The notes beneath the pieces were generated by a model. It searched no databases and was not told where the DNA came from. It worked only from the letters and a program-made list of their open reading frames with translations. Source: an uncultured Bacteroidales bacterium (GTDB lineage Bacteria; Bacteroidota; Bacteroidia; Bacteroidales; CAIWKO01). Taken from it: DNA of 64,000 nt. Every line of letters starts with the position of its first letter. Position 1 is the first letter of the stretch. Location of the stretch: contig CAIWKO010000045.1 of NCBI GenBank assembly GCA_903913285.1, forward strand, positions 192,068-256,067. Direction: 5' to 3'. Below, piece after piece: positions 43,285 to 64,000 of this stretch. The position numbers and the translations under genes were made by a program.

Positions 43285-46200
43285 TCATTTTTTCATTACA
43301 CGTAAAATTTCATTCATCAAGCCTGTTTTATCAATCGGTTTCAATAGAAAACCGCTAAAACTTTTTGTTAGTATCTTCTGAATGTCCGTTTCTGTTGAAT
43401 AAGCTGTTAAAGCTATTAAAGGAATTTTATCGTTCAAACTATAGATTTTATCAGCGGTTTCAACTCCGTTCATACCTTCTCCTAAATTGATATCCATAAA
43501 AACAATATCATATACCGATCTTTTTATGAGTTCTAAAGCCATTGTGCCTGTTGTAGCAATGTCGATGACGCATTCATTCTTCAGATAAGCTTCTATCAAT
43601 TCGCCGTTTATTTTATTGTCGTCAACCACTAAAACCTTGTATTTTGAAATGTCTTTTGAAATGGGTTTTTTATCTTTTTGAACTGAAACGGAGTTATTAA
43701 TTTCCACGATCTTTTCCGGTTCAGCCAGTGGTAAATAAATCGTAAACACAGATCCTTTCCCCAGTTCACTTTCAACAAGTATTTTGCCTCCCATGAGTTC
43801 AGTCATTTTTTTACACAATGCAAGTCCAAGCCCTGTGCCTTCATAGCTTCTGTTCAAGCCTTCGCTTACCTGACGAAACTCTTGAAATATCAGATTATAG
43901 TGATCTTTTGAAATACCGATCCCGGTGTCGGCTATAGAAATATAGGCATATTCTTTTTCGCGATAGGAAGAAACTCCCGTTTCGATCGTAATCCCGCCTT
44001 TTTCAGTGAACTTAATTGCATTCGAAACCAAATTGTTTAAGATCTGTATCAGAAAATTTTCATTGAATGCAGCAAACACATTTGTTTGAAGATTTTTCTT
44101 AAGAAAGATATTTTTCAAATTTGCTTCATGCTCAATAGGCGAAATCGACATTTCGATGAACTTATTCAGGTTGGTTCTCACGATCTCCAGAGGTTTCTTG
44201 CTTGCTTCAAGTTGCGACAAATTTAAAATGGAATTTAATGTGCTCATCAATCGCTCGCCCGAAAACAAGATATTATCAAGCATATCCTGCGATTTGCTGT
44301 CTTTGATTTGCTGCCGCAACAAGGAGGCGAATCCCAAAATACCTGTCATGGGTGTACGAAGTTCGTGGCTCATATTGGCAATAAGAGCTGTTTTTAGTCT
44401 GTCAGAGTCTTCAGCAATTTCTTTTGCGTGCAAAAGTTGGTCTTCGGCCTGCTTTTTATAGATCAACGAAGCGATCTGTTCGGAAACAAAAACAAGCAGA
44501 TCTTTTTCTGCAGAAGTATATTGTACCCCTTTCGAATAGTTTTGAACCGCAATAACCCCGATCACCTTTTTTCTTGTTATCAATGGAACTCCAAGCCAAT
44601 CTTTTGATAAAGCTCCGATAATTTCAATTTCGCCTTCCTTTTCGAGGGTTTTAAGTATTTCGGGATTTGTCAGCAATGGTATACCGTGTCTTAAAACATA
44701 TTCTGTCAGACCCCTTTTCAGCCTTCGTGTTATAGGTTTTTCGTCTTTTTCATCAACAAAATACGGGAATGAAATTAAATCTGTGTTATCGTCATATAGT
44801 GCAATGTAAAAGTTTCGGGCATCCATTAATTCGCTTATGATCGAATGAATAGATTCATAAAGTTCATCGGAACTTGTAGCTGTATGAATTAATTGCGAAA
44901 TTATGAATGTGGCGGCCCGCGCTTTTTCCGATTTTTTTAATTCAGTAATATCGTGGTTGATATTCATAATGGCCTTTTGACCACTATATTCTATCACAGA
45001 CCCGTTGACAAGCATAAAAAGTTCTTTGCCGTTTTTGGTATTATGTATGGTTTCGAAATTTTTTAATGCATTCTTTTCACTTAAATTTTCAATTTGAATC
45101 TGATCGTAAGAGAAATTTTTTGACAATTGCTTTAAGTTCATTTTGCATAACTCATCTAAACTGTATCCATAAATTTCTGTTGCTTTTTCGTTTGCTGTGA
45201 TAATTTGTGTAGTAGCAGGATTAACAATTAATATAGCATCATTAGCATTTTCGAAGATTGCACGATACTGCGATTCGGAACGTTGAAGGGCTAATGACGT
45301 TTTTCGTTGTCTGGAAATATCCCGAACTACCTTGCCGATATAAAAATCATTTTTAGTGTTAATTTCGAAAGTCGTTTGTTGAATGTAGCGTTCTTTTCCG
45401 TCAATTGAAATAATTGATTCTTCAATATAACGATTGGATGAATTAACTTTTCCGTCGAAAATGGTTTTTAATGTTTCCGACTTGAGTTTCGAATAATAAT
45501 TTTCATTTCTTAATTCGGTTTTCATGAGTTGAAATTCCATATCCCATTGATATTCTCCAATCGCATTTTCTTTTAGGATCCCCGTAATTTGAGTCATTCC
45601 TTTATTCCATTCGATCACCTTTCCTTCCCTGTTGGTTAGAATAATCCCTTCAAGAGATTGTTCGATAACACTCCTGAATTTTTCTTCACTGGTGCTTAAT
45701 GCCAACTCTGTTATTTTTCTTTGATTAATTTCTTCCTGAAGTTGATGAATGATTTGTGTTAATAAAGCGGTCCGTTCTCTTACCCGGTTTTCCAGTTCTG
45801 TGTTCGCCTGCTTAATTGAACTTTCAATATTGCGCAGATCGGTTATTTCATAAAATGTCCCTAAGATATAAGGTGTTCCTTCAATATCATTAAAAAGTTT
45901 TTTCTTTGAAATTACTATTCTTTTAGCGCCTGAAGCAGTTTGTATTTCTTCCTCCACATCTGCATCCGATCCGGTTTCAATAACATTTTGATCTTGTAAT
46001 TCAAATATTTCTGCTTTCTTTTTGGGGAATAAAAAATGTGCAGTTTTACCAATAATTTCCCGAGAGGTCATGCCGAAGAAATCGCAAAAAGCCTGATTTA
46101 CAAAAAACCATTTATAATCTTTATCTTTAATGAAAATGGGTTCCGAAATATGGTTCAACAGATCGATTATTTTAGTGGAATTAATTGAAAAGAACCGATT

Positions 46201-46347
46201 AACTTCATCGGGTTGTTGAGCATCAATAATTCTGTAATTTGTTGAATCCGCAGGTTCGTTAATGGTTAAAACACCTTTCTGAATTTGGTCCTCGAGTGAA
46301 CGAACTATTTCTTCAAGGTTAGTTTTATTGGTAAATTCAAAGATCAT
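43285..46347 (-). CDS. Hybrid histidine kinase (PAS-PAS-PAS-GAF-HisKA-HATPase-REC)
   Basis: A 1020-residue soluble sensor kinase. Three PAS domains (about 45-165, 220-340, 355-470; for example EPIFIKDKDYKWFFVNQAF) are joined by a coiled coil. A GAF domain follows at 485-640, then HisKA with phospho-acceptor H661 (MSHELRTPMTG), HATPase with NLVSNAIKFTEKGG and DTGIGISKD, and a receiver with phospho-acceptor D952 (VFMDINLGEG). No transmembrane segment is visible, so it senses cytoplasmic signals, probably redox, light or ligands bound by PAS/GAF. It lies 5 bases after a smaller kinase gene. Confidence 0.9.
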   Translation of the reverse strand: MIFEFTNKTNLEEIVRSLEDQIQKGVLTINEPADSTNYRIIDAQQPDEVNRFFSINSTKIIDLLNHISEPIFIKDKDYKWFFVNQAFCDFFGMTSREIIGKTAHFLFPKKKAEIFELQDQNVIETGSDADVEEEIQTASGAKRIVISKKKLFNDIEGTPYILGTFYEITDLRNIESSIKQANTELENRVRERTALLTQIIHQLQEEINQRKITELALSTSEEKFRSVIEQSLEGIILTNREGKVIEWNKGMTQITGILKENAIGEYQWDMEFQLMKTELRNENYYSKLKSETLKTIFDGKVNSSNRYIEESIISIDGKERYIQQTTFEINTKNDFYIGKVVRDISRQRKTSLALQRSESQYRAIFENANDAILIVNPATTQIITANEKATEIYGYSLDELCKMNLKQLSKNFSYDQIQIENLSEKNALKNFETIHNTKNGKELFMLVNGSVIEYSGQKAIMNINHDITELKKSEKARAATFIISQLIHTATSSDELYESIHSIISELMDARNFYIALYDDNTDLISFPYFVDEKDEKPITRRLKRGLTEYVLRHGIPLLTNPEILKTLEKEGEIEIIGALSKDWLGVPLITRKKVIGVIAVQNYSKGVQYTSAEKDLLVFVSEQIASLIYKKQAEDQLLHAKEIAEDSDRLKTALIANMSHELRTPMTGILGFASLLRQQIKDSKSQDMLDNILFSGERLMSTLNSILNLSQLEASKKPLEIVRTNLNKFIEMSISPIEHEANLKNIFLKKNLQTNVFAAFNENFLIQILNNLVSNAIKFTEKGGITIETGVSSYREKEYAYISIADTGIGISKDHYNLIFQEFRQVSEGLNRSYEGTGLGLALCKKMTELMGGKILVESELGKGSVFTIYLPLAEPEKIVEINNSVSVQKDKKPISKDISKYKVLVVDDNKINGELIEAYLKNECVIDIATTGTMALELIKRSVYDIVFMDINLGEGMNGVETADKIYSLNDKIPLIALTAYSTETDIQKILTKSFSGFLLKPIDKTGLMNEILRVMKK

Positions 46348-46352
46348 ACAGT

Positions 46353-47144
46353 TTATTTTTTTGGTAAGGCAAATGTGAATGTACTACCCGAATTCTCTAT
46401 ACTGTCAATAACCAGGTACCCGTTATTTTTCGTAATTAGTTCCTTACACAGGATCAATCCCAATCCACTTCCATATTCATCAGCTGTTCCTTTTGTTTTT
46501 ATCTTTTGATCTAGTTTTAAGATCTTCTCCAGATTTTCTTTTTTAATTCCGACACCATTATCCGATACTGAAATCTCAATAAATCCATCAGAGTTTTCTT
46601 TGTTTTTGGTCTCTTTAGCCCTGATAGTAATATTGCCGCCCTGAGCAGTGAATTTTATGGCATTAGAGATCAGGTTGCGCAGTATAGTTTTGAGCATATT
46701 AATATCACCGATAGCCGAAATATTGGATTTTATCTCCGATCTTAACTTAATATTTTTGTGCTTTGCCTGAAGGTGAAGCACCTCAACGACCTCGTTTGCT
46801 GTTTCTGATACGTTTATGATCTGAGGATTGAACTCCATATGGGTGGTTTGCGACCATTCCAGTAAGTTTTGAAGCAGCCGCATCAACGATTTTGATGAAA
46901 CGTTGATGTTTTTTAAGTATTTTTTCTTTTCTGTATCGGTTAATGAATCAAAATTTGTTGATAGAATATCCGAAAATCCTATTATTGCATTGAGGGGGTC
47001 TTTCAGGTCGTGAGCAATGATCGAAAAAAAACGATCTTTGGTTGAATTTTTTTCTGATAATTTTTCCGCAGAATGTTTTATTGCTGTCTTTGACTTTTTT
47101 CTTTTGTCGGTGGTATTAAGCAATTTAACCTTGGAAGTTGCCAT
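46353..47144 (-). CDS. Sensor-less histidine kinase
   Basis: A 263-residue cytoplasmic kinase with only a 35-residue basic N-terminus before the HisKA domain. The phospho-acceptor H45 is in FFSIIAHDLKDPLN, followed by the HATPase motifs NLISNAIKFTAQGG, DNGVGIKKENLEK and GSGLGLILCKEL. Without a sensor it must take its input from a partner, plausibly the hybrid kinase encoded 5 bases downstream. Together they could form a mixed phosphorelay. Confidence 0.85.
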   Translation of the reverse strand: MATSKVKLLNTTDKRKKSKTAIKHSAEKLSEKNSTKDRFFSIIAHDLKDPLNAIIGFSDILSTNFDSLTDTEKKKYLKNINVSSKSLMRLLQNLLEWSQTTHMEFNPQIINVSETANEVVEVLHLQAKHKNIKLRSEIKSNISAIGDINMLKTILRNLISNAIKFTAQGGNITIRAKETKNKENSDGFIEISVSDNGVGIKKENLEKILKLDQKIKTKGTADEYGSGLGLILCKELITKNNGYLVIDSIENSGSTFTFALPKK

Positions 47145-56984: not shown

Positions 56985-57015
56985 TTGACATGGAAGTAAA
57001 AAAGTATTAAATTTG
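56985..57015 (+). promoter_or_regulatory. Promoter of the response regulator/glycosyltransferase cluster
   Basis: TTG (56985-56987), 20-bp spacer, TAAATTTG (57008-57015), leaving a leader of about 65-70 nt. Confidence 0.45.
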
Positions 57016-57088: not shown

Positions 57089-57814
57089 ATGAATATTCTT
57101 ATTTGTGAAAATGAAAATGCCGTTGCTTTTGCATTAAATTTTTATTTACAGAAAAACGGACATACAGTTACTTTGGTTAAGGACGGTGATTCGGTGCTAT
57201 TGAAGATCAATTCAATGGATTTTGATTTAATAATTACAGATTTATTTATCACTTTTCATACTGGTTTTGAGTTACTTCATCATTTACGGACAGTTTTAAA
57301 AAAGAAAACTCCGGTTATCATTTTGACAAAATTAAATGATGAAAATGAAAAACAAGAAGCGTTAAAAATGGGAGCTGATGATTTTATCACAAAACCGTTT
57401 AACCCTGAAGTTTTGATTAGAAAAGTTAATAACCTACTCTATAAAACTCCGAAAAAAATTATCAATACGTACGTATACGTTCAGATGATCGATCTGGAAC
57501 AATTGAATCAGATTACGGAAGGTGATAATGATTATTTAGCTGAAATTATCAGACATTTTATTGATGTCGCATCAGAATTAATAGTTTTAATCAAAAAGTA
57601 TTTAAATGAGATCAACTGTAAAGATCTTTTAGTGCAGTGTGAAAAACTCTCACGACAATTAACATTTCTTGGAATTTATTCTGCAAATTTAATTACTGAG
57701 CAGATCATTACAATAATTACGAATAAAAAAGACATGTACAGAATTCCTTCACTTGTTACTGAGCTTGAAATCCAAACTAATAAAGCAATCTCGGAAGCAA
57801 AAAAAATGATCTAG
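57089..57814 (+). CDS. Response regulator with degenerate Hpt domain
   Basis: A 241-residue cytoplasmic protein. Residues 1-120 are a receiver domain with acceptor D51 (LIITDLF), T80 and K102 (FITKPFNP), so it can be phosphorylated. Residues 130-240 have the helical layout of a histidine phosphotransfer domain (DNDYLAEIIRHFIDVASELI, then CEKLSRQLTFLG). The acceptor His of AHxLKG is E185 here, so this Hpt cannot carry phosphate. It may instead sequester or scaffold a partner. It is first in a cluster with a HEAT-repeat membrane protein and a processive glycosyltransferase. Confidence 0.8.
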   Translation: MNILICENENAVAFALNFYLQKNGHTVTLVKDGDSVLLKINSMDFDLIITDLFITFHTGFELLHHLRTVLKKKTPVIILTKLNDENEKQEALKMGADDFITKPFNPEVLIRKVNNLLYKTPKKIINTYVYVQMIDLEQLNQITEGDNDYLAEIIRHFIDVASELIVLIKKYLNEINCKDLLVQCEKLSRQLTFLGIYSANLITEQIITIITNKKDMYRIPSLVTELEIQTNKAISEAKKMI

Positions 57815-57988
57815 CAAAATTAAGAATCAATTTTATGCAAAAACTACTCTCTGAATTTATTTTGCTAATATCGAGTTTTTCCGTAATATTTCAAATTGAC
57901 AAAATTTGTGATTTTGTATTTATTCAAAAATCAAATAGAGACAAACTAGCTTACGAAGTGTTATTTTATAATATTATTAAATAAATTT

Positions 57989-59263
57989 ATGAGGCAGATA
58001 TTCAAACTATTGGTTGTTATTCTTTGGATCTCAAACACAGTTGAAGCAAATTCTAGTTATTCTCCAGAAAATAATCAAAGCATAAGCTATAAGAGATATG
58101 TCGACAGCATGAGAAAGAGTGGAACTTATATGCCATACTTTCCGGATTATTACCGTATCAAAGAAAAGCCTCCTAAAACGTATATTCAACTAGTTACAGA
58201 ATCATATAATAATTCAGCTATTACTAAAACTGTAGTTTTTCTTTTAATTGGATTTATTTCGCTTATTATCTTAATAACGATTTCTATTCCGGTAAATAGA
58301 TACTATTTTGATTATACGGAAAAGAAATCACAGAAACTAAGGCTGGAGTATCTTGACGAACTTATTCGCTATATTTTTGATGACGATTATATCATCAATA
58401 AAGAATTCTTTAGTAAAATTATTAAATTGAGATTTAATCGGAAAATTTTGTTGGAAGAAATTATTAAACTTCATTCCCAATTTATCGGTGTTTATGGCTA
58501 TAAACTTGAAAAACTTTTTTTCGAGATTGGTTTAGATGCTTATTCTCTTGATAAAGTAAGGAGTAAATTTTGGTATATTAAGGCCAGGGGATTTCGTGAG
58601 GTTGCTGAGATGTGTATTAATAGTGCGCTTCCGGAAGTTGAGAATAATTTGGACAGCAAAAATATAATATTGAAAGTCGAATCAAGAATAGCCTGGACAA
58701 AACTGAATCCTCAGTTTCCGGTTAAATATCTTGAAAACGAAACGGTTTCTCTTACTGAGTGGGGCAAAATGCATGTGTTTGGATTTCTCATAAAACAAAT
58801 TGTTGATATTGATCCTTATCTGAAATTATTGGATCATAAAAACCCTTCAATAATTATTTTTGGCTTACAAACAGTGGGACTGTTTAAAAGATACGAGTAT
58901 ACTGAAAGGATAAGTGGTTTTTTAACAAATGCAAATGAGGATATTTGTGCAGCTGCAATTATTTCTTTAGGAAATATGGGTACTGTTGAAACTTCAAAAA
59001 TTCTCATAGAGCACTATGACACCCAAACTCCGGCTAATAAAACAACAATTGTCCAAATTGTTAGTGACAACCCTTGCGACGGCTGTGTGGATTTCTTTGC
59101 AAAAATAATAGAAGAAGGTTATATTAACAGGTCGTTAAGTGCAGTCAAAGGGCTATTAATGATGAAAGATTTTGGTGAGGCTAAATTGAATGAATTGCTT
59201 GAAAGTAATATTGAAAATTTGCAGGGATTTATAAACCAGATTAAAGAATCTAATATTGAATAA
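57989..59263 (+). CDS. Membrane protein with cytoplasmic HEAT repeats
   Basis: A 424-residue protein with an N-terminal signal-like helix (1-20), a short periplasmic segment, one transmembrane helix (about 80-102) and a large cytoplasmic part. Residues 255-410 show HEAT-like helical repeats (PSIIIFGLQTVGLF, EDICAAAIISLGNMGTVETSKIL, NRSLSAVKGLLMMKDFGEAKL). HEAT repeats bind partner proteins. It sits 2 bases before the glycosyltransferase gene and is likely its regulator or scaffold, linking it to the response regulator. No enzymatic motif. Confidence 0.75.
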   Translation: MRQIFKLLVVILWISNTVEANSSYSPENNQSISYKRYVDSMRKSGTYMPYFPDYYRIKEKPPKTYIQLVTESYNNSAITKTVVFLLIGFISLIILITISIPVNRYYFDYTEKKSQKLRLEYLDELIRYIFDDDYIINKEFFSKIIKLRFNRKILLEEIIKLHSQFIGVYGYKLEKLFFEIGLDAYSLDKVRSKFWYIKARGFREVAEMCINSALPEVENNLDSKNIILKVESRIAWTKLNPQFPVKYLENETVSLTEWGKMHVFGFLIKQIVDIDPYLKLLDHKNPSIIIFGLQTVGLFKRYEYTERISGFLTNANEDICAAAIISLGNMGTVETSKILIEHYDTQTPANKTTIVQIVSDNPCDGCVDFFAKIIEEGYINRSLSAVKGLLMMKDFGEAKLNELLESNIENLQGFINQIKESNIE

Positions 59264-59265
59264 TT

Positions 59266-60696
59266 ATGTATCAATTTTTTCATATTTTCAGAAACTTTTT
59301 CGAATCAGGTATTTTTATTTATACTTCTGTATTATTTAGCAGCTATTTTTTGCTTTCATTGATTTCGGCTTTTGAAATGAGAAAGTATATTTTAAAGAAT
59401 AGCTTTGTTGATTATTCCGAAATACTTGCATCTCCTTACGTTCCGGCTATTTCGGTTATTGCTGCTGCTTATAACGAAGGGAGAACTATAGTTGAAAACA
59501 TTAGATCTTTATTGGCATTACATTACAATAGTTATGATGTAATTATTGTTAATGATGCGAGTACAGATGATTCAATGCAAAAAATAATTGAGGAATTCGA
59601 TCTGATCAAAATAGATTTCTTTTATAATAGTGTATTGATAACCAAACCGATTAAAGGTATTTATAGATCACGGAACGAATCCTTTTCCAAACTTATTGTT
59701 GTTGATAAAGAAAATGGTGGCAAAGCTGATTCAATAAACGCAGGGTTAAATGTTTCAACTAATAAATATTATTTGGCAATAGATGTTGACTGTGTTTTGG
59801 AGAGTGATTCACTGGTAAAGATGGTCAAACCTTTCCTTGAAGCTACTGACAAGAAAGTAATAGCAACTGGCGGAACAATCCGAATTATTAACTCATGCAC
59901 AGTTGTTAATGGTAAGGTTGTTGAAGTAACAGTTCCTAAAAATTTAATTAGCCGCGCACAGGTTTTAGAATATACCCGCTCTTTTCTTATGGGGAGAATG
60001 GCATGGAGCCGATTAAATGGATTATTGATTATTTCTGGTGCCTTTGGTATGTTCGACAGGGAAATTGTTATTAATATTGGCGGTTATAGTTCAGTTACCC
60101 TCGGTGAAGATCTGGAATTGATCGTGAGAATGAGAAGATATATGCATGATATTAAAGAGAAGTACCGGGTTATTTATATTCCCGATCCATTATGCTGGAC
60201 TGAAGTTCCGGCTAAAGTAAAGATTTTATCCAGGCAAAGAAATCGATGGACCCGTGGAACCGTTGCAACTTTATTAATTCATAGAAAAATGTTCTTTAAC
60301 CCACGATATGGATTTATCGGAATGATAAGTTTTTCTTTTTGGGTAATTTTTGAATGGTTTGCACCCTTTGTTGAATTCTTTGGGATTTTATATTTCTTGT
60401 TGATCATTGCTCTTGGAAATCCTAATTGGGTGTTGTTTTCACTAATGATTGGTTTTGCATACTGTTTTGGAGTTACTTTTTCTGTTGGTGCAATATTATA
60501 TGAGCAGCTTTCCTATCAGAAGTATAAAAAGCCGATAGATCTGTTTCGATTAATAGTAATGGCTTTTTTCGAACCACTTTTTTTCCATCCGATGCTTGTT
60601 TGGTTTGCGTTAAAAGGAAATTACCTGTTTTTAGTAGGTGAAAGACGATGGGGCAAAATGGATCGTAAAGGATTTGGGTCAGCAAGTAATGCCTGA
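59266..60696 (+). CDS. Processive beta-glycosyltransferase (PgaC/IcaA/BcsA-like)
   Basis: A 476-residue inner-membrane synthase. One N-terminal membrane segment (about 15-35), then a GT2 domain with IAAAYNEGRTIVENI, VNDAST (D97), AIDVDC (D173, D175), LGEDLEL (E281, D282) and QRNRW (Q324-W328). The last is the signature of processive synthases that couple polymerisation to export. Three to four C-terminal segments follow (350-450). It resembles poly-N-acetylglucosamine, hyaluronan or cellulose synthases; the polymer is not predictable. No c-di-GMP PilZ domain is fused. Confidence 0.85.
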   Translation: MYQFFHIFRNFFESGIFIYTSVLFSSYFLLSLISAFEMRKYILKNSFVDYSEILASPYVPAISVIAAAYNEGRTIVENIRSLLALHYNSYDVIIVNDASTDDSMQKIIEEFDLIKIDFFYNSVLITKPIKGIYRSRNESFSKLIVVDKENGGKADSINAGLNVSTNKYYLAIDVDCVLESDSLVKMVKPFLEATDKKVIATGGTIRIINSCTVVNGKVVEVTVPKNLISRAQVLEYTRSFLMGRMAWSRLNGLLIISGAFGMFDREIVINIGGYSSVTLGEDLELIVRMRRYMHDIKEKYRVIYIPDPLCWTEVPAKVKILSRQRNRWTRGTVATLLIHRKMFFNPRYGFIGMISFSFWVIFEWFAPFVEFFGILYFLLIIALGNPNWVLFSLMIGFAYCFGVTFSVGAILYEQLSYQKYKKPIDLFRLIVMAFFEPLFFHPMLVWFALKGNYLFLVGERRWGKMDRKGFGSASNA

Positions 60697-60858
60697 TAAT
60701 TACAGAATAATTATCAACTTATCAGGATCTGTTTTGTATTTCTCTTCTGAGATTCTAACTTTTATACGTAAGAATAAGAAATAAGAATAAGTAAGATTAC
60801 TTCTTATACCTTATTATTATAAAGCATTGCCCGGTAATAAAATTTAATTCTTTCCGCC

Positions 60859-62028
60859 TTATTTAGTCTTATCCATTCCGTTATAGTAATCCTTCAGAAT
60901 TTTAGAAACCAAAGGAATATAATAACGATAATAAAAGTGATCGGTTTCAGCAGGGGCAGCTTTTCCAAGCAAAAACAAGTGTAAATAATAAACTCCTTTC
61001 AACTGAATGAAATTAAAGTTTGCAGGATAATCCACAAAATCTCCTCCGAAATAGTAGAATTTATAATCCTTAGTATGTTCAAATGTTGCAGGAAATAATT
61101 TGGGTATACCTTGATATTTTAAAATTGAATCACCTTTAGCGTTTGATTTAATCTCATAGTATGAAAAAACATGATTGGAAGTATCAGTACTGTATGTTAT
61201 TTCGAACCAATACGGATAGTATAATACATCTGGCAATCCATATTTTTCGGTTGCACTATAGAATGTCTGAATTAATGGAACTTCCAAATTAAGATGTAAC
61301 TCTTTTCCCAGAATTTCAACGCGATCATCTTCATTAGCAAAAACAATTCCTGAAGAAGTAAATGGCCAGGCATTATGATGTTGTTGTTTATATAAATGCA
61401 CTACCCAGTGAGGTAATTCGGGATTTTTTACGGTATCAAGTAAATCGAAATAACGCCCTGTCCAACCGGTCCATTTTAAGTGGAAAATAGATTCAAGTTC
61501 TCTTCTGATGCCATAAGGGGTAGGAGATGCAAAGAAATTAAATTCCGTAACGATCAACTTTTTCTGGTCTTTCATTTTCCGTATTAACGACAATTCATTA
61601 TTGTCAAGACCTCCATATATTTTTTCAGAATGTTCCTGCTGTAATGTATCCCGATACCATTCGTTATAATACATTCCGTATGAATCAGCAAAATAAACGG
61701 CATCATAATAGTTGGCCATGCTGTCAATTTGTCTGTCCGAAAACTTGCTTAGATCGTGGATTTTGTATTGCTTGTGATCTTTGGGATAGAAACCGTAATA
61801 ATCAGTATCGATTTCATAATAATCCCGATTTTCTTTCACATACTTACTATTCTCAAGTATCCAGTCCAGTCCCCGATGCTCTCTGCAATATCGGTTTAAT
61901 ACGGTTTTATCTACAATAAGAATTTTAAATGGTTTTTTGGGTGTAAGCAACCAGCTTACCCACATGATTGCGGGGAACAGAACAACAACTAATATGATAA
62001 AGGTTACAATTATCTTTTTGATTCTCAT
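60859..62028 (-). CDS. Membrane-anchored protein of unknown function
   Basis: A 389-residue protein with one N-terminal transmembrane helix (about 5-28) and a large periplasmic part. The domain has many Tyr, Trp and His (WYRDTLQQEHSEKIYGG, HWVVHLYKQQHHNAWPF, DVLYYPYWFEITYS). The region WVVHLYKQQHHNAWPFTSSGIVFANEDDRVE, cited as QQHHNAWPF, could suggest a hydrolase-like fold, but no catalytic set is proved. It is convergent with the glycosyltransferase cluster. A role in handling the polymer is possible by location only. Confidence 0.6.
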   Translation of the reverse strand: MRIKKIIVTFIILVVVLFPAIMWVSWLLTPKKPFKILIVDKTVLNRYCREHRGLDWILENSKYVKENRDYYEIDTDYYGFYPKDHKQYKIHDLSKFSDRQIDSMANYYDAVYFADSYGMYYNEWYRDTLQQEHSEKIYGGLDNNELSLIRKMKDQKKLIVTEFNFFASPTPYGIRRELESIFHLKWTGWTGRYFDLLDTVKNPELPHWVVHLYKQQHHNAWPFTSSGIVFANEDDRVEILGKELHLNLEVPLIQTFYSATEKYGLPDVLYYPYWFEITYSTDTSNHVFSYYEIKSNAKGDSILKYQGIPKLFPATFEHTKDYKFYYFGGDFVDYPANFNFIQLKGVYYLHLFLLGKAAPAETDHFYYRYYIPLVSKILKDYYNGMDKTK

Positions 62029-62157
62029 CCTATTTAATTTTATGTAAAATTAATATTATTAGAATTGAAAAACACATTTTTTTTTATTTACATCAAAAAT
62101 TTTTTCTAAAAAAGTAATTTAAAATTGATTTTCAGCTATCAACTAATAATTCTTTTA

Positions 62158-62188
62158 TTTGTTTCTGATCATTTTTCTATTATTTTTG
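62158..62188 (+). promoter_or_regulatory. Textbook Bacteroidota promoter of the DUF3352 gene
   Basis: TTTG (62158-62161), exactly 19 bp, TATTTTTG (62181-62188). This is the best match to the phylum consensus in the window. The ATG is 17 bp downstream. Confidence 0.7.
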
Positions 62189-62205
62189 TAATAAAAAATA
62201 AAAGT

Positions 62206-64000
62206 ATGAAAAAGAAGCATAGAGGGCTAAAAATAATTTTATGGTTTTTAGTTTCAATACTATTGATTATAGGATCTATTGTTGCGTATTTGTATTTTGG
62301 TGAATCGGGCAAACGAAATGCGCTGACCGTAATTCCAAAAGAAGCTGTGTTTATAATCGAGACATCGAACCTTACAGAAGGCTGGTCCACTTTGAGCGAA
62401 AGTAAAATGTGGAAACATTTGTTATCGAGCCCCAAATTTGATAAGATCAACCAAAGTGCCATGCAACTCGATTCTCTGGTCAAAGGAAATAAAACTTTGA
62501 ATATGTTATTTTCCGAAAGGCAACTGGTTATTGCAGCTCAAATGACCACTCAAAGAGATTACGATTTTATTTTTGCTGTTGATTTAAAAAGGGCCTCAAA
62601 AATTTCTTTTTTGAAGAACTATATTAAAGATATTCTGGGTTATTTTGACTATTCTATGACCAAACGTACCTTCGAAGGAACCGAGATCCTTGAGCTCACT
62701 AAGACAAACTCAACCGAAATTCTCTCTATTTGTTTTATCGATAATATTATGGTGTGCAGCTATTCGCCCATGCTTATCGAAAAATCTATTCATCAAAAAG
62801 ATAGCGAATATTGGACAAAAAACCCCAATGTGCGTTTTGTCACCACAGAGATCAAGGGAAACAAACTCTTTAACTTTTATCTCAATTTCAGTCAACTCGA
62901 CGATTACCTGAAATGTTATCTTTCCGAGCCTTCCTCCATAGTAAATTCAATTAGTACGAATCTCTATTTTTCTGCTTTTAATGTAACTTTCGATAACGAA
63001 AAACTTCAGTGGGATGGCTATACCAGTGTGAACGACAGTTTGCCTTCTTATTTTAAGGCATTGGCTAATGTAGCCCCCGGAAAATGGAATGCTTACGATA
63101 TTATTTCTGATAAGGCGGCTCTTTATGTTTCGATGAGTTTTAATAATCAGGCTTCATTTTTCGATAAGCTGAAAGAAGTTTTTAAATCGGAAGATACCAC
63201 CAAGGCACAGGATTATGAAAAGACGATCAAAAAGGTCGAAAAATACTTAAGAATTAATCTTGACAACGACTTTTTCGGCTGGATCGGAAGCGAAATCGCC
63301 TTTGTAAAACTTCAGCCATCACCCAATGCAAACGAAGATGATGCTATTGCCATGATCCATGCTTCGGATATTGAAAGGGCTAAAGCTGGTATGGATAAGA
63401 TCACAAAAAACGTGCGTCGCAAAACCTTTGGCCTGGTTAAATTTAACGATACCGAATATAAAAACTTCACCATAAAGTATCTCGAATACGGCTGGTTCTT
63501 GAAATTGTTCTTCGGCAAACTGTTCAACAAGTTCGATAAACCCTATTATACCATAATGGACGATTATGTTGTTTTCAGCAACTCGCCTTCGTGTTTGATT
63601 GAAATGATAGATGATTATACTGTGGGGAAAACTCTGGCTCATAACTCCGATTTCATGAAGTTTCTCGATAATTTCGATCCCAAAGCCAATATGTCGGCAT
63701 TTGTGCAGATGCCCAAAGTTTATTCGCACCTTTATTATTACAGCACAAGCGAAAAACGTCAGGGCATTAAAGAAAACAAAGATGTTATTTTAGGTTTTAC
63801 ACGGGTTGGATTGCAATTGGTTTCCGATAACGGTATGTTCAAAACAAAACTTCACGCCGATTTCGACGAACAGGCAGGTTTCAGCAGCGACCTCGAAAAC
63901 ATCGAATCGGCAGCCGAGGACCTTTATCTCTTTCAGATCGATTCGGGAAAATATAAAGTAGTTATTGGTTCGAACATGGTGAATAGAACCGGGCCGTATA
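62206..64000 (+). CDS. DUF3352-family protein, incomplete at window end
   Basis: The open frame starts at ATG 62206 (MKKKHRGLKIILWF) and runs to the window end, 598 codons without a stop. An N-terminal transmembrane segment (ILWFLVSILLIIGSIVAYL) is followed by a periplasmic domain with the DUF3352-like opening TVIPKEAVFIIETSN. The pattern VDLKRASKISFLKNY and later the repeat DIERAKAGMDKITKN suggests duplicated beta-alpha modules. DUF3352 has no known biochemical function. The C-terminus lies outside the window. Confidence 0.7.
   Translation, partial: MKKKHRGLKIILWFLVSILLIIGSIVAYLYFGESGKRNALTVIPKEAVFIIETSNLTEGWSTLSESKMWKHLLSSPKFDKINQSAMQLDSLVKGNKTLNMLFSERQLVIAAQMTTQRDYDFIFAVDLKRASKISFLKNYIKDILGYFDYSMTKRTFEGTEILELTKTNSTEILSICFIDNIMVCSYSPMLIEKSIHQKDSEYWTKNPNVRFVTTEIKGNKLFNFYLNFSQLDDYLKCYLSEPSSIVNSISTNLYFSAFNVTFDNEKLQWDGYTSVNDSLPSYFKALANVAPGKWNAYDIISDKAALYVSMSFNNQASFFDKLKEVFKSEDTTKAQDYEKTIKKVEKYLRINLDNDFFGWIGSEIAFVKLQPSPNANEDDAIAMIHASDIERAKAGMDKITKNVRRKTFGLVKFNDTEYKNFTIKYLEYGWFLKLFFGKLFNKFDKPYYTIMDDYVVFSNSPSCLIEMIDDYTVGKTLAHNSDFMKFLDNFDPKANMSAFVQMPKVYSHLYYYSTSEKRQGIKENKDVILGFTRVGLQLVSDNGMFKTKLHADFDEQAGFSSDLENIESAAEDLYLFQIDSGKYKVVIGSNMVNRTGPY

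Follow-up and report, generated by a model that had tools for sequence, protein, structure and literature searches.

Genes for a response regulator, a HEAT-repeat membrane protein and a processive family-2 glycosyltransferase (GT), found side by side in 64,000 nucleotides from an uncultured Bacteroidales bacterium (the stretch analysed here, called the window), are the cytoplasmic and inner-membrane half of a Bacteroidota exopolysaccharide gene set that is widespread and apparently undescribed. The best explanation of the whole, which we hold at a probability of about 0.6, is a synthase-dependent exopolysaccharide machine in which a HEAT partner and a phosphorelay-fed regulator would take the place of c-di-GMP, and in which the window's own Hpt domain has become fused to the regulator and lacks its histidine. 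This explanation is built on gene content, co-occurrence, residues and predicted folds. The novelty lies in the conserved phosphorelay-HEAT-synthase unit and not in the dead Hpt domain on which a first-pass annotation of the window had centred. No description of a HEAT-regulator-synthase locus was found in the open full-text literature (most subscription journals fall outside that scope).

The four open reading frames lie where they were first placed: the regulator at 57089-57814 (+ strand, 241 aa), the HEAT-repeat protein at 57989-59263 (+ strand, 424 aa), the GT at 59266-60696 (+ strand, 476 aa), and a convergent membrane-anchored protein at 60859-62028 (- strand, 389 aa). A match to the Bacteroidota-type promoter-like pattern TTG-N20-TAnnTTTG at 56985-57015 (+ strand), about 74 nt 5' of the regulator start, is of note for its position only, the window having 3 such matches where 2.1 would be expected by chance. 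A terminator scan of the window also gave chance-level results only. Elsewhere in the window, a DUF3352 protein (65.9 bits; 62125-63999) sits beside the convergent gene and runs past the window end, and a 1020-aa hybrid histidine kinase of PAS-GAF-HisKA-HATPase-receiver architecture lies with a second kinase at 43285-47144, some 10 kb upstream of the locus.

The GT gene begins 2 nt past the HEAT gene. Its product has one N-terminal and several C-terminal transmembrane (TM) segments and carries every motif expected of a processive enzyme (D97, DVD at 173-175, GED at 280-282 and QRNRW at 324-328), as the first-pass annotation had read them; in a 19-sequence alignment D97, D173, D175, E281, D282, Q324, R325, R327 and W328 are invariant. 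It matches Pfam Glyco_tranf_2_3 and relatives, and its best NCBIfam match is TIGR03937 (PgaC_IcaA), at 119.2 bits under a curated cut-off of 422.3. The product is perhaps an amino-sugar polymer, a guess from this sub-threshold likeness to PgaC. The Pfam scan shows no PilZ domain on the GT. The protein encoded just before it has an N-terminal signal-like or periplasmic part, one strong TM segment at residues 82-100 by hydropathy, and then a stretch of some 320 residues made up of helical HEAT repeats, predicted to be cytoplasmic. The window protein scores 25.7 bits to HEAT_2, just below the 27.7 cut-off, while its homologues score well above; with the TM segment, this bears out its first description as a HEAT-repeat membrane protein lying between regulator and GT. 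Residues E204, E231, L248 and W258 are invariant in the alignment of the family.

Using the synthase as query, 67 loci were found among 84,980 species genomes, and profile searches over the phylum and close relatives added more. It had been asked at the outset whether the three genes co-occur across genomes, or whether most synthase homologues lack the other two. They do co-occur: family profiles place a HEAT gene immediately upstream of the GT in 79 of the 80 homologous loci with room for it, and a receiver protein is present in 46 of the 49 loci with at least 4.5 kb on both sides. The same 49 loci encode a YaiO barrel (46), an LtaS-like sulfatase-fold protein (28), a kinase of the locus family (24) and an Hpt (26); 18 have neither a locus-family kinase nor an Hpt nearby, which counts against the explanation given above. 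The locus HMMs were partly trained on loci they annotate, while position and adjacency are independent of that training. In a search of 148 genomes from the phylum, every one of the top GT matches has a HEAT match at adjoining coordinates. The loci come from Bacteroidales, Chitinophaga, Cytophagales, Flavobacterium, Pedobacter and other records, and from other classes of the phylum too. An exopolysaccharide-synthase locus with a receiver and a membrane HEAT protein stands as a conserved unit, as first proposed. The pairing is specific to this clade of synthases and not general to GT2 synthases, since a second and more distant synthase family, L138-L141 (about 365-390 bits, L138 in a congener of the source organism), has neither HEAT protein nor regulator. 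In three of those four, the synthase is followed by a TPR-like protein and a membrane-anchored protein of about 1000 aa. Many Chitinophagaceae loci have the LtaS-like part fused to the synthase, with the convergent gene, barrel, regulator and hybrid kinase on the opposite strand beyond the fusion. At L025:7968-11555, as at other such loci, synthase and LtaS-like part form a single reading frame of about 1195 aa, which puts polymerisation and probable decoration in one chain.

The window has neither the YaiO barrel nor the LtaS-like gene. Both are found in the source genome on another contig, C32, where the genome's sole YaiO barrel (TPR plus barrel; 190 bits, over the PF19413 cut-off) adjoins an LtaS-like gene that scores 757 bits with the locus-family profile; other sulfatase-family genes of the genome score at most 138 bits. 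Barrel and LtaS-like gene together occupy L113:5818-9343. Because the two genes lie together there, the locus is most likely split over two contigs rather than incomplete. A protein with a weak polysaccharide-deacetylase match is encoded near the pair, at L113:13485-15629.

The convergent gene, too, is a member of the locus: homologues at 26-45% identity occur in 14 of the 49 fully flanked loci, and several further loci have one as well. In the AlphaFold2 model of its product (pLDDT 86), a single N-terminal TM helix precedes a GATase1-like fold. Alignment of the model with VIA-align gives Z 13.9 over 204 aligned residues at 3.0 A to 3soz_A, and many GATase1-like chains at Z 11-14; the matches include ThuA-like proteins, GH42 galactosidase domains, the carbohydrate deacetylase Agd3 and oligosaccharyltransferase subunits. 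A 20-sequence alignment of the family has no invariant Cys that could serve as catalytic nucleophile, which makes amidotransferase chemistry unlikely. Our guess is a glycan-binding or glycan-processing part outside the cytoplasm.

The regulators of these loci are receivers of about 120 aa with no output domain and for that reason should act by protein contact. No GGDEF domain is encoded in any of 21 genomes with the locus (8 of 14 control genomes are positive), which makes control of this synthase by c-di-GMP unlikely. Hpt proteins with an intact His are found directly beside the regulator (e.g. L009, L012, L014, L029, L069, L132) or as the C-terminus of a hybrid kinase (e.g. L034, L060, L061). 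Wherever the position can be read in the other Hpt domains of homologous loci, the acceptor residue is His (37 of 37); in the window it is Glu. These intact domains point to a family-level design that is an ordinary His-Asp phosphorelay feeding a single-domain, CheY-like regulator. The first-pass annotation had proposed a control other than c-di-GMP and PilZ, with a pseudo-Hpt as its defining part, and had named homologous clusters with a functional Hpt His as the finding that would undo it. The first half agrees with the absence of GGDEF and PilZ domains from the genomes and synthase searched. The second half is not supported: homologous clusters do have Hpts with an intact His, and among the loci and genomes searched the fusion is found only in the window. 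In one locus receiver, at L035:790-1152, Glu replaces the Asp that would accept the phosphoryl group and the acid pocket contains a Pro; it is possibly a constitutive regulator.

The window regulator itself consists of a receiver (residues 1-118), a linker (about 119-131) and a C-terminal four-helix bundle (132-241). The receiver (Pfam Response_reg, 83 bits, E=2e-23) retains D51 and K102, as had been recognised, and also has T80. A further change was absent from that description: the acid-pocket pair is E7-N8, whose second position is Asp in 53 of the 55 other receivers of the alignment. N8 may weaken phosphorylation of this regulator. Pfam gives no match to the C-terminal domain. A family HMM trained exclusively on the stand-alone Hpts found in homologous loci, with the window sequence excluded, does recognise residues 132-239, with a score of 36.9 bits (E=9.5e-10 in a search of all locus ORFs), and the alignment places E185 at the acceptor-His position, in agreement with the first reading of an Hpt-like domain with Glu there. 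AlphaFold2, run on aligned homologues (receivers, Hpts and the receiver-Hpt tails of kinases), predicts a receiver and a four-helix bundle (helices 147-173, 177-194, 197-212 and 216-240) with mean pLDDT 93, and 94-98 in the bundle; a pTM of 0.55 means that the model speaks for the fold of each domain, not for their relative placement. A PDB fold search with the model gave receiver-bearing chains, so the assignment of the bundle relies on the alignment and on the helices of the model. The domain thus has the four-helix bundle of an Hpt and, with Glu185, not its phospho-accepting His.

In a receiver tree the window receiver clusters with the stand-alone locus regulators and not with kinase receivers (97/99 support, on a long branch), so the window protein is a locus regulator with an Hpt joined at its C-terminus. 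Derivation from the C-terminus of a hybrid kinase, which has the same receiver-Hpt order, is rejected for the receiver on this grouping. There is no second receiver-Hpt fusion among 67 related loci, nor at E <1e-26 in 395 genomes of the class, a threshold that a more diverged fusion would escape. L133 encodes a 255-aa regulator whose N-terminal part is not an Hpt.

The mechanism that we favour runs as follows. The GT2 protein would polymerise and translocate a glycan, which the TPR-YaiO outer-membrane barrel would export. The LtaS-like sulfatase-fold membrane enzyme present in about half of loci would decorate it, and in some loci the GATase1-like anchored protein would have an extracytoplasmic role. 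Where other synthases rely on c-di-GMP with PilZ or PgaD, this one would have a membrane HEAT protein as its obligate partner and a CheY-like single-domain regulator fed by kinase and Hpt. Most likely, the phosphorylation state of the regulator sets its docking on the HEAT domain and so switches the synthase post-translationally. We infer the docking site from two features of the HEAT protein, its constant position next to the synthase and its repeats, which are predicted to be cytoplasmic. Gating of the synthase by the regulator through HEAT, and the direction of such control, are proposals. The regulator might instead influence transcription by way of a partner, or have a different target. 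As for the window lineage, the Hpt joined to the regulator would have lost its His and become a binding, dimerisation or autoinhibitory module, the regulator being phosphorylated directly by a kinase or largely independent of phosphorylation. The weak phosphorylation that N8 may cause argues against gating by phosphorylation in this particular organism. The full proposal, that of a phylum-wide, undescribed machine switched by a His-Asp phosphorelay through CheY-like/HEAT docking and not by c-di-GMP, together with capture of the window's Hpt as a phosphorylation-dead part of the switch, is offered tentatively, at less than even odds.

The source genome (an assembly about 97% complete, in 70 contigs) has no other Hpt by Pfam or by the locus-family profile, two congeners have none by Pfam, and 40 of 59 relatives searched do have one. 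At this completeness, an Hpt may have been missed in the assembly. Taken with Glu185 and Asn8, the lack of another detected Hpt makes the phosphorelay look rewired or weakened in the window lineage. One account of this, which we regard as rather unlikely, is that the lineage has lost phosphorelay control, the regulator being vestigial or a constitutive HEAT partner and the two substitutions products of relaxed drift. It would explain why both positions relevant to phosphotransfer are altered in one protein, and it fits the split of the locus over two contigs and the synthase search in congeners (of three, two have no match at 1e-100 and one only a distant match). However, the 241-aa reading frame is unbroken, the bundle is modelled at high confidence, the Hpt-family residues still earn their 36.9 bits, and D51 and K102 are kept.

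A second account makes the HEAT protein a structural co-polymerase subunit, like PgaD, with no signalling role; the regulator would then control expression or another process via a partner and merely share the locus. HEAT does occur more constantly (79 of 80 loci, against 46 of 49 for the regulator), its gene abuts the synthase gene, with a gap of 2 nt in the window, and the distant members L120 and L122 keep HEAT next to GT with no recognised single-domain regulator adjacent. We nevertheless judge this account unlikely: throughout the phylum, almost all complete loci have a single-domain regulator close to HEAT-GT, which argues for shared function. Less likely still is the original reading of the pseudo-Hpt as a dedicated, phosphorylation-dead binding module that couples receiver state to HEAT as a new control device: its predicted fold is retained and Arabidopsis AHP6, an Hpt protein with its acceptor His replaced and unable to relay phosphate, is a working pseudo-Hpt regulator (PMC7402358), but the fusion occurs once in the genomes and loci searched and the regulator-HEAT-GT unit exists elsewhere with no pseudo-Hpt. 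AHP6 is a separate protein with Asn that inhibits by competition, whereas the window domain has Glu and is fused to a receiver.

Among known systems, the closest by synthase are the PNAG systems PgaABCD and IcaADBC, which share the membrane GT2 synthase with its best NCBIfam match to PgaC/IcaA and a TPR and barrel outer-membrane protein. They differ in that the window GT falls below the PgaC cut-off, no PgaD or PgaB is recognised in the locus, HEAT and receiver stand there instead, and the genomes have no GGDEF. E. coli, the only control genome with a YaiO-domain barrel (PF19413/TIGR04390), resembles these loci through YaiO/YaiP; no HEAT protein or receiver is known there. SypE and SypG of Vibrio fischeri are multi-domain regulators, and the Syp pathway is not of this synthase type. 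The likeness, with SypF, is that kinase-fed regulators control a biofilm polysaccharide (PMC12369376, PMC5019070). A precedent from another type of pathway comes from Myxococcus xanthus, where the single-domain regulator EpsW, once phosphorylated, acts post-translationally to stimulate EpsZ, a phosphoglycosyl transferase (PMC12802240). It shows that contact with a CheY-like protein can be enough to switch an enzyme of polysaccharide synthesis. EpsZ is the initiating phosphoglycosyl transferase of a Wzx/Wzy pathway and not a processive synthase, and that system has no HEAT adaptor.

The survey yields a gene list for follow-on work: regulator, HEAT protein, synthase, YaiO barrel, LtaS-like enzyme and GATase1-like protein. 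For most known synthase-dependent exopolysaccharides the switch is c-di-GMP. The carrier genomes tested have no GGDEF, and the conserved receiver-HEAT-synthase unit is a concrete candidate for gating the synthase there. The fused pseudo-Hpt of the window is a natural experiment in the removal of a relay step.
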